A stretch of DNA of 13,160 nucleotides from Pseudomonadota bacterium (GTDB lineage Bacteria > Pseudomonadota > Gammaproteobacteria > PS1 > Pseudothioglobaceae), in the NCBI GenBank assembly GCA_022600395.1, contig JAHZKM010000074.1:1-13160 (forward strand). The letters are read 5' to 3'. Numbering within the stretch: the stretch's first letter is position 1; each line of letters opens with the position of its first letter. The notes under the pieces are model-generated. The model saw nothing but the letters and a program-made list of their open reading frames with translations. It was not told where the DNA came from and did not search any database. The position numbers and the translations under genes are program-made. Positions 1,455 through 11,786 of this stretch are shown here, in pieces.

Positions 1455-1463
1455 TGTTATAAT
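1455..1463 (+). promoter_or_regulatory. Extended -10 promoter of metK
   Basis: The string TGTTATAAT contains a perfect TATAAT (1458-1463) with the TGn extension. No good -35 box is present at 17 bp spacing (about 1435-1440). Transcription would begin near 1470, at the first base of the aptamer described next, and this agreement in position supports the call. Confidence 0.65.
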
Positions 1464-1470
1464 GTTCTTA

Positions 1471-1535
1471 AGCGCTGATTTGTCCCGATTGCTAGCGTTA
1501 CTACTTAAAGTAGTTAAATTAAGCTAAAGCAGGCG
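1471..1535 (+). promoter_or_regulatory. SAM-II/SAM-V-type S-adenosylmethionine riboswitch aptamer (metK leader)
   Basis: The leader matches the SAM-II pseudoknot pattern: a stem flank GCGCTGATTT (1472-1481), a C-rich loop with CCGATTGCT (1485-1493), the returning stem strand AGCGTT (1494-1499), and the conserved AAGCTAAA followed by GG (1521-1533). P1 forms by pairing 1471-1476 with 1494-1499, six pairs including one G-U. The pseudoknot can form from loop bases GCT (1491-1493) with AGC (1522-1524), and CC in the loop with GG (1532-1533). A small extra hairpin (1500-1504 with 1510-1514) fills the connector. The identification rests on recalled consensus, and the position upstream of SAM synthetase fits a SAM sensor. 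SAM-II and SAM-V share this ligand core, so the subclass is open. The expected effect is lower metK expression when SAM is abundant. Confidence 0.78.
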
Positions 1536-1549
1536 TTTCTCTTCATTGG

Positions 1550-1575
1550 AAAACCCTTCTTGAAAAGGGTTTTTT
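1550..1575 (+). terminator. Intrinsic terminator/attenuator in the metK leader
   Basis: CCCTT (1554-1558) pairs with AAGGG (1565-1569) across a 6-base loop, flanked by A (1550-1553) and six T (1570-1575). It lies about 14 bases after the riboswitch aptamer and 23 before metK, so it is a likely expression platform for SAM-controlled attenuation. A weak competing pairing of GTTT (1535-1538) with AAAC (1551-1554) could act as an antiterminator; that part is inference. It might instead simply end ccmAB transcription. Confidence 0.7.
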
Positions 1576-1598
1576 AATATTTAAACGGAGAACAAAAA

Positions 1599-2738
1599 AT
1601 GATATTTACCTCTGAATCTGTTTCGGCAGGACACCCCGATAAAGTTTGCGATCAAATTTCTGACGCTATTTTAGATGTGGCACTAGCGCAAGACAAAAAT
1701 TCACGCGTTGCGGTTGAAACGCTTGTTAAAGACAATCATGTTGTCTTAGCGGGCGAAATTACCACTGGCGCAACCATTGATTACGAAAAAATCGTACGTG
1801 ATACCATTATTGGTATTGGCTATGATAAAGAAGAGTATGGCTTTAATGGTCATACTTGTGACCTCACCAACTTACTAGGCGAACAATCTCAAGATATTGC
1901 CATGGGCGTTGACGAATCATCAGATCACCAGCAAGGCGCAGGTGATCAAGGTCTTATGTTTGGTTATGCTTGTAACGCAACTGATGTTTACATGCCAGCA
2001 CCTATCTTATACGCTCACCGTTTAGTTGCCAAGCAAGCCGAATTGATGAAAAACAACACGTTGCCTTGGCTGCGTCCTGATGCTAAATCACAAGTTTCTT
2101 GCATTTACAAAGATCATAAAATTGTAGGCATTGACGCGGTAGTACTTTCAACTCAGCATGATGCGGATATCTCTTTAGATGATTTACGTGAAGCAGTTTT
2201 AGAAGAAATTATTAAGCCTGTTTTACCAAGTGAATGGCTAAGTAGCGCCACTCAATTTCATATTAACCCAACAGGTAATTTTGTCATTGGTGGACCGGTT
2301 GGCGACGCTGGACTCACGGGTCGAAAAATCATCGTTGATACTTACGGCGGTATGGCAAGACATGGTGGCGGCGCATTCTCGGGCAAAGATCCTTCAAAAG
2401 TTGATCGTTCAGCGGCCTATGCAACTCGTTACGTGGCTAAAAATATTGTGGCAGCTGGCTTAGCAGATCGATGTGAAGTGCAAGTCTCTTATGCCATTGG
2501 CGTGGCTGAGCCCACTTCTATAAATGTTGAGACTTTTGGTACAGAAAAAATATCAAATGAAGCGATTGAAGCACTTATACGTGAGCATTTTGACTTACGT
2601 CCAAAAGGTCTGATTGCTATGCTTGATCTTAAGCGTCCGATCTACCAAAAAACAGCAAGTTATGGTCATTTTGGACGAACTGAAGATGATATTTCCTGGG
2701 AAAAAACTGATCGAGTTCATTTGTTGAAAACAAACTAA
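1599..2738 (+). CDS. metK: S-adenosylmethionine synthetase MetK
   Basis: This cytoplasmic enzyme makes SAM from methionine and ATP, releasing phosphate and diphosphate. The protein has 379 residues, close to the 384 of the E. coli enzyme, and looks complete. Family signatures are visible: the N-terminal [10 protein letters not shown] with the catalytic histidine at 12, the ATP-binding hexapeptide GAGDQG at 113-118, and the glycine-rich GGGAFSGKD loop at 257-265 followed by KVDRSAAY. The start at 1599 has a Shine-Dalgarno sequence, ACGGAG (1585-1590), eight bases upstream. It is preceded by its own promoter, a SAM-binding leader and a hairpin, so feedback control by its product is likely. The next gene, ahcY, handles the SAH formed when SAM is used. 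Confidence 0.97.
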
Positions 2739-11291: not shown

Positions 11292-11786
11292 TTAATGCAT
11301 GGAATGATGTTTCATCATCATTTTTCCTTTTCTAACCAAGGCTTTAATCATATGCGTATTACCATCATCAAACTCAAGACTGACCATAATCTGCTCGCCC
11401 TTACTCGGCACCTTGTCTGGGCCAATTAACATAATATGCCAACTCCCTGGCTTTAAGTGTAGCTCACCTTGTGCAGGAATTGGCATAAACGCTTGCTTAA
11501 CCATTTTCATAACGCCATTACTATCAACTGTTCTATGCAGCTCGATGCGCTTATACCCTTTTGTATAAGCAGAAATTAGTCTTACTTCTTGATTAGTATG
11601 ATTGCTAATACGCAAAAATAAACCTAATGCTGGTGCATTTTCAGGTGCTGAACGAATCCAGGGATCTGTAATGGAAATTGATTTATTTACGTGATTGTTT
11701 TGGTGTGCATGAGATGCTGCATTGGCAAAAGTGACACTGACTAGTGCTATTAATAAAAATAGCGTTTTTTTGAAATGGTTTAACAT
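11292..11786 (-). CDS. PCuAC family periplasmic copper(I) chaperone
   Basis: The 164-residue protein has a Sec signal peptide (basic start, hydrophobic residues 9-20, cleavage probably after ANA at 21-23). The copper-binding signature H-X10-M-X21-H-X-M fits exactly: His84, Met95, His117 and Met119. Extra metal-binding residues flank the domain, a His-rich segment after cleavage (SHAHQNNH, 25-32) and a Met/His tail (KMMMKHHSMH, 155-164). PCuAC proteins carry Cu(I) in the periplasm and pass it to CuA of cytochrome c oxidase or to Sco1, which is encoded immediately downstream. AAGGAAAG lies upstream of the start on this strand, serving as a Shine-Dalgarno sequence. A candidate promoter and palindrome lie just before it. 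Confidence 0.95.
   Translation of the reverse strand: MLNHFKKTLFLLIALVSVTFANAASHAHQNNHVNKSISITDPWIRSAPENAPALGLFLRISNHTNQEVRLISAYTKGYKRIELHRTVDSNGVMKMVKQAFMPIPAQGELHLKPGSWHIMLIGPDKVPSKGEQIMVSLEFDDGNTHMIKALVRKGKMMMKHHSMH

Follow-up and report, generated by a model that had tools for sequence, protein, structure and literature searches.

A predicted SAM-sensing metK leader RNA of Thioglobaceae combines traits of the SAM-II and SAM-V riboswitches

Introduction

Two described riboswitch classes come closest to the RNA reported here. SAM-II, represented in Rfam by RF00521 (SAM_alpha) and RF01726 (SAM-II long loop), is an H-type pseudoknot of helices P1 and P2 with a GAUUUG...GAUUGC...GCUAAA core and a terminator-type platform in front of a methionine or SAM gene; its connector has no P3 (PMC6061858). 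In SAM-V (RF01826), which has marine hosts, a P3 stem-loop and the adenines after it separate P1 from the P2 return strand, and the short P2a holds the Shine-Dalgarno (SD) sequence, near the start codon. In its structure, the third strand has seven bases (G5-G11), one of them bulged, and U8-U10, A18, U19, U20, U47 and A48-A50 contact SAM or take part in triples (PMC6061858).

In 2007, SAM-II was reported as sporadic in gammaproteobacteria, and dual transcription-translation attenuation was already a category (PMC2258182); a sporadic occurrence is also stated in PMC2704228. A 2014 survey lists SAM_alpha only for Rhizobiales and Rhodobacterales, and describes an orphan metXZ RNA element of beta-proteobacteria with a predicted pseudoknot and a terminator before methionine genes (PMC4239095). 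A SAM-II switch with dual regulation has been studied in S. meliloti (PMC9373788). The SAR11 tandem of SAM-II and SAM-V lets SAM control first transcription and then translation, through a pair of aptamers with separate platforms (PMC9481103). In the open-licence literature, we found no report of a SAM riboswitch in SUP05.

Genomic context of the metK leader

The window, i.e., the whole stretch of 13,160 nucleotides that was analysed, is contig C109 of a draft genome of 1.18 Mb, which is assigned to the genus of ‘Ca. Thioglobus autotrophica’ (SUP05 clade). Relatives of SUP05 include symbionts of clams and mussels. SUP05 is classed within Thioglobaceae (PMC10927645), and its members are abundant sulfur oxidisers in low-oxygen seas (PMC4616170).

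The leader is located between ccmB, which ends at position 1443, and metK; the genes ccmA, ccmB, metK and ahcY all passed their NCBIfam cut-offs, and the metK of another genome of the genus (G062) is 95% identical. The gammaproteobacterial host and the identity of metK, both proposed in an earlier note made from the letters alone, were correct. The following elements were located:

1458-1463 (+): -10 box TATAAT, read from the sequence, with a predicted transcription start at about 1470
1470-1533 (+): the whole SAM-II-type aptamer, located by covariance model R2
1472-1476 (+): P1 5' strand, partner of 1494-1498
1477-1482 (+): GAUUUG, putative third strand of a P2 triplex like that of SAM-II and SAM-V
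1485-1493 (+): P2a/P2 descending strand, near-invariant
1489-1493 (+): pseudoknot strand UUGCU, pairing with 1522-1527
1494-1498 (+): P1 3' strand, from the P1 pairing in the family alignment
1500-1514 (+): P3 connector hairpin ACTAC/GTAGT (1500-1504 with 1510-1514)
1521-1533 (+): P2/P2a ascending strand AAGCUAAAGCAGG, whose alternative partner in nascent folding is the terminator 5' strand
1527-1561 (+): alternative antiterminator hairpin, predicted by nascent-RNA folding of the window leader
1537-1542 (+): predicted anti-SD linker strand, partner of 1587-1592, from folding and a swap test
1545-1578 (+): terminator hairpin predicted by folding (1545-1558 with 1565-1578), with a run of six T at 1570-1575; a strict scan did not list it
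1587-1592 (+): SD sequence GGAGAA of metK, from the sequence and the linker pairing
1599-2738 (+): metK, methionine adenosyltransferase, which makes SAM (TIGR01034, 594.8 bits, cut-off 309.4)

In letters, the window contains GCGCTGATTT at 1472-1481, CCGATTGCT at 1485-1493, the return strand AGCGTT at 1494-1499, AAGCTAAA at 1521-1528 and GG at 1532-1533, i.e., all sequence elements listed in the earlier note. The aptamer end and the metK start codon are 65 bases apart.

The sole match in the window above any Rfam cut-off is an SAH riboswitch (RF01057, 43 bits) at 2766-2841 on the forward strand, between metK and ahcY. It is an ordinary known element, also found near metK in 19 of the 20 relatives examined (that of L115 is below the cut-off), and it places a probable SAM-sensing and an SAH-sensing RNA before neighbouring genes of one cycle.

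An aptamer conserved throughout the family

We detected metK in 77 of the 83 family genomes and read 76 of these loci; the one left out belongs to G013 (metK 61% identical), a genome without a match to our model R1. The motif is present in 73 of the 75 metK leaders that have upstream sequence, L134 being cut by a contig end and hence outside this count. The metK leader L168 has no motif. In the degenerate leader L167 (G001), AATTGC and AAAGCTAAAATAGG are kept and the motif pattern is unmatched, possibly marking a switch that is decaying or has diverged. With model R1, a match is obtained in 74 of the 83 family genomes (47 of the 49 of good quality), which are those of the 73 leaders plus G054, with its match at a contig end.

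Covariance model R2, applied to the window, excludes the window genus; of the 59 unique leaders from the other genera, 58 went into it (L164 omitted). It scored 1470-1533 at 80.3 bits (E 1.5e-18), in support of the SAM-II/SAM-V-type pseudoknot that had been suspected before metK. The runner-up at 11584-11633 (13.2 bits) is taken as chance, and so are the next R1 matches in the own genome (E 0.045 and 0.08; one is L196), which leaves the genome without a recognised second aptamer copy.

The alignment comprises 71 unique sequences, three of them one base short at the 3' end, after two identical ones were dropped. Across the 73 leaders, the core reads GATTTG in 67 (GATTTA and AATTTG in three each), GATTGC in 71 (AATTGC in two) and GCTAAAG in all; in the alignment, AUUU (third strand), AUUGC (P2) and AAGCUAAAG are among the invariant columns. 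P1 is paired in 99.4% of cells, and two of its five pairs are changed on both sides, each in one sequence. P3 is paired in 96.3% of cells, with changes on both sides in all five pairs. P2 is almost invariant (99.7% of cells paired for the descending strand) and therefore has no covariation of its own and is uninformative in this respect. P2a is the least regular part, its three pairs having 7, 1 and 4 unpaired cells; with it included, 97.8% of cells are paired, as against 93.1% in shuffles. The covariation score of the whole structure (0.254) was reached by none of 500 shuffles, in which kinship is ignored, and slid controls gave 0.096 at most. Related metK leaders keep the pseudoknot strands nearly invariant and let the hairpin vary compensatorily, the reverse of the pattern that the earlier note had given as a refutation; the note was also right about the connector hairpin at 1500-1514.

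All 73 leaders have an exact TATAAT ahead of the aptamer, at a distance of 3-9 nt in 71 and of 13 and 18 nt in the other two. The aptamer accordingly starts at about the transcription start, as had been anticipated. Generic promoter and terminator scans of 1380-1620 listed neither element.

These observations bear on the alternative that the conserved leader is under protein control, by a MetJ- or SahR-like repressor, or is a plain attenuator with no aptamer at all. metK does belong to the MetJ and SahR regulons in proteobacteria (PMC4239095), but the compensatory changes in P1 and P3 occur at the RNA level, the SAM-II core is kept while the spacers vary, and the motif starts close to the transcription start. 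We consider this alternative extremely improbable.

Position between SAM-II and SAM-V

The earlier note had named the Rfam covariance models as a check, and this check went against it. RF01726 gave 14.3 bits in the window (cut-off 44 bits), and neither RF00521 (cut-off 36 bits) nor RF01826 (cut-off 41 bits) matched the window leader at E <= 10. In the 41 family loci scanned (the window plus 20 and 20 others), every SAM family stayed below its cut-off, the best match being one of 26.2 bits to RF01726 in L130, and none of the three models had a match above cut-off anywhere in the own genome. RF01826 was also without a match across 398 genomes of the phylum; the controls were equally silent, so this has no bearing on absence. 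Given scores under the SAM-II cut-offs, we class the RNA as a variant outside the Rfam family. As the pseudoknot strands are kept and the hairpin varies compensatorily, we read the Rfam models as too narrow, and not the motif as false. As the current models miss a riboswitch found before metK in the whole family, SAM-II probably extends further than is recognised.

The metK leader RNA is a variant between SAM-II and SAM-V. With SAM-II it shares P1, the six-base GAUUUG, the pseudoknot of GAUUGC and GCUAAA, a methionine/SAM gene downstream and a terminator-type platform; the latter, a stem-loop followed by a U-run, is a predicted terminator found by folding. It differs from SAM-II in the extra P3 of the connector, in scores below both Rfam cut-offs, in the control of metK and in the arrangement of the anti-SD linker and the SD, which flank the terminator on opposite sides; high-scoring matches are, among the genomes searched, restricted to one gammaproteobacterial family. 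With SAM-V it has in common P3 between P1 and the P2 return strand, the adenines after P3 (consensus CTAAAACAAG), the short P2a and a marine host. Unlike SAM-V, it has a third strand of six and not seven bases, a terminator and no RF01826 match, and in the window the SD lies opposite a separate linker instead of inside P2a. The joint presence of P3, a SAM-V trait, and of a terminator, a SAM-II trait, makes it a bridging variant, and one of the differences that distinguish the two classes is thereby removed.

The ligand deserves special attention. The positions mapped from the contacts and triples reported for SAM-V (PMC6061858), among them the U:A.U triple next to the sulfonium, show no variation in the 71 sequences. 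Judged by the identity of these contact bases, SAM is very probably the ligand. A SAM-II-like fold that binds something else, e.g., SAH or methionine, would agree with the scores below the Rfam cut-offs of SAM-II and SAM-V. This is nevertheless very unlikely, considering the invariance of the contact bases and of the triple, the product of metK, which makes SAM, and the separate SAH riboswitch after metK in the window and in almost all relatives examined.

Predicted terminator and antiterminator

The metK leader is quite probably a cis-acting, SAM-sensing OFF switch of SAM-II type that operates through a terminator; the ligand and the direction are part of this judgement, and the second control described below is not. 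The computed support consists of the conservation, the position at the promoter, and covariation in P1, in P3 and in the helix of linker and SD; the fact that the metK product makes SAM itself was counted in favour of such a switch. The RNA would begin at P1. With SAM plentiful, the ligand would fill the P2 triplex of GAUUUG, GAUUGC and GCUAAA, the strand GCUAAAG(C/U)NGG would be locked in the pseudoknot, the terminator would form and transcription would stop. With SAM scarce, the same strand would pair with the terminator 5' strand as an antiterminator, and metK would be transcribed. We infer the antiterminator and the direction of switching. The leader indicates how the SAM supply of SUP05 is probably set.

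The terminator-like hairpin with six T, which the earlier note had pointed out, was recovered by folding. A terminator was recognised by pattern in 62 leaders and in none of the remaining 11; for L094, L140 and L169, all among the 62, a separate hairpin search found no T-run hairpin. When nascent RNA ending just 5' of the terminator 3' strand was folded, the terminator 5' strand came out as the main predicted partner of CUAAAG(C/U)NGG in all terminator-type leaders but L092 and L096 (60 of 62). The downstream pairing probability is 0.70, compared with 0.29 in shuffles, and the hairpin has a mean z of -2.33 (62 leaders). The real pairing was reached by no more than 5% of 40 shuffles in 36 of the 62, and by no more than 10% in 50. 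The window, with a pairing of 0.51, is moderate in this respect; its predicted antiterminator consists of the pairs 1527-1529/1559-1561, 1531-1533/1555-1557, 1535-1538/1551-1554 and 1540-1542/1548-1550.

Other calculations were less telling. A first duplex test, which compared the pairing of the 3' strand with that to shuffled sequence downstream, gave a weak signal (mean z -0.79; p <= 0.05 in 19% of 73 leaders). The antiterminator was about as strong with a 3' strand taken from another leader (-8.84) as with its own (-8.94; 1161 of 5000 swaps as low), a neutral outcome because the aptamer 3' strand hardly varies. With the antiterminator imposed, the fold is weaker by a median of 3.75 kcal/mol (62 leaders). 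Equilibrium favours the terminator, so that the ON state would have to be kinetic and to rest on the order of transcription.

Two results were set aside. A single-position covariation count (standard pairs in 21 of 56; shuffled mean 19.9) was misdirected, its pattern often having matched CTTT of the linker. Pairing of the P1 5' strand with the linker GGCGUU, seen in an isolated fold of the window leader, was rejected as a general partner, as the linkers of other genera (GGAUUUC/GGAGUUC) disallow the same form.

A possible second control through the linker

The pyrimidine-rich linker between aptamer and terminator is predicted to pair with the metK SD beyond the terminator. In the 62 terminator-type leaders, the duplex of each linker with its own SD has a mean of -9.3 kcal/mol, against -8.18 after swapping (0 of 5000 permutations); that of the window is weaker, at -6.1 kcal/mol. 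When one leader per genus was drawn, the own duplex was stronger in 96% of 300 draws. The swap was not significant within genus g5 alone (770 of 5000) or in the 11 terminator-less leaders (2879 of 5000), in which another strand faces the SD. Shuffled linkers (60 per leader) matched the SD closure in no more than 10% of cases in 54 of 73 leaders, and in 23% for the window. Imposing the antiterminator raised the mean SD openness from 0.09 to 0.40, with a rise of more than 0.1 in 50 of the 62 leaders and a fall in six; the window went from 0.11 to 0.22.

On this evidence, the linker is an anti-SD strand that co-varies with the metK SD, and regulation by way of the linker is less certain. In such a second layer, the linker of read-through RNA would pair with the SD around the terminator, and the antiterminator would free the SD. 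A comprehensive reading, possible at slightly less than even odds, has one aptamer and two nested controls (terminator and anti-SD), with P3 as an optional module in a continuum of SAM-II and SAM-V, and with a single loss of the terminator in a clade of Thioglobaceae that would have become purely translational. The greater novelty lies in the dual nested mechanism, whose linker-SD pairing is backed by covariation and whose regulatory effect is a prediction. It resembles the SAR11 tandem (PMC9481103) in that SAM would act on transcription and then on translation; here, instead of two aptamers with separate platforms, one aptamer would do the job of the tandem, with the terminator nested in the SD-sequestering stem.

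A possible, though rather doubtful, reading shares the SAM-sensing core and denies the second layer only: control would be exerted on transcription alone, and the linker-SD pairing would be constitutive in read-through RNA or serve mRNA stability or translation strength. It agrees with the description of most SAM-II switches as transcriptional (PMC6061858) and with an SD that is mostly closed at equilibrium when the 3' strand is merely free (mean openness 0.16, as against 0.10 with the strand locked, in 73 leaders; higher by more than 0.1 in 14, lower in four). Against it stand the co-variation of the linker-SD helix between leaders, the opening of the SD by an imposed antiterminator, and a clade that keeps the predicted SD sequestration without a recognisable terminator (see below). 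As a separate observation, leader L107 (G065) has an additional hairpin, GACTGC...GCAGTC, between terminator and metK SD.

A clade without recognisable terminators

Nine g5 leaders (L144, L146-L149, L151-L153 and L173) are without a recognised GC terminator. Five of them contain a perfect nine-base downstream complement of the aptamer strand AAGCUAAAG (p 0.007-0.01 against shuffles), and shorter complements exist in L149 (eight bases, p 0.04), L148 (six, p 0.047), L153 (six, p 0.07) and L144 (five, p 0.34). A strand located farther upstream is the predicted partner of the SD. With the aptamer strand free, the computed SD openness is higher in eight of the nine and unchanged in L152. In a tree from the first 480 bases of metK, a single branch (94/95; 94% of bootstrap trees) separates from the rest the eight of these leaders with enough sequence, so that one change suffices; L173 was too short for this tree, and L150, also without a recognised terminator, was excluded from both groups. 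According to these predictions, the terminator seems to have been lost in one clade, in which SD sequestration persists. The leaders offer a natural series for studying the evolution of expression platforms, from predicted terminator plus SD sequestration to SD sequestration alone, with the aptamer nearly unchanged.

SAM-II-type RNAs beyond the family

Strong matches were obtained in four of 369 genomes from the class, all of this family; eight other genomes gave weak ones (best E 5.5e-4 to 0.022). Among 398 genomes from the phylum, four matched at E <= 0.01, including the own genome.

In family f108, SAM-II-type matches (E <= 0.05) occur in 60 of 150 genomes, and the matching genomes include ones of 2.4-7.4 Mb. 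A MetX-like motif was found at 30 of the 31 f108 loci L197-L227. Of the 30 loci that were parsed, seven (L197, L199, L201, L202, L203, L205 and L210) have a hairpin at the P3 position and 23 a short unpaired connector, in proportions that are not a fair frequency because these loci are the best scorers to a P3-containing model. RF00521 was passed by five of 20 f108 loci, none of them with a P3-like hairpin. Since some f108 metX leaders have the hairpin and others do not, SAM-II-type aptamers carry a P3-like hairpin as an optional insertion, which the Thioglobaceae leaders have throughout. The f108 metX leaders contain the SAM-II core and may be the metXZ element of beta-proteobacteria, which is described as an orphan (PMC4239095) and which resembles our leader in its predicted pseudoknot and terminator before methionine genes.

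The weak matches in the class include ordinary-looking SAM-II RNAs from elsewhere in Gammaproteobacteria, before metZ-like genes (L186 and L188), metK (L192 and L194) and a MetN-like gene (L187), the gene names being our reading of the sequences. L188 narrowly passes the RF00521 cut-off with 36.4 bits, L186, L192 and L194 reach 31-32 bits and L187 28.2 bits. The expectation in the earlier note that this locus would widen the known class therefore holds for its structure, through the added P3 variant, and less so for its distribution, given these RNAs and the gammaproteobacterial SAM-II already reported in 2007 (PMC2258182). The family-wide spread, the anti-SD linker, the antiterminator pairing, the platform change and the location of the hairpin at the P3 site of SAM-V go beyond what had been noted before.

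A few minor observations concern the individual leaders of this wider set. G269 has two SAM-II-like leaders (L190 and L195) about 1.2 kb apart, neither of which gave an Rfam match at E <= 1. A downstream strand complementary to the aptamer strand GCUAAAG occurs in L188, L194 and L192 (about 1490-1600), and in L194 the aptamer strand is also copied by the terminator 3' strand (GCUAAAGCGGG).
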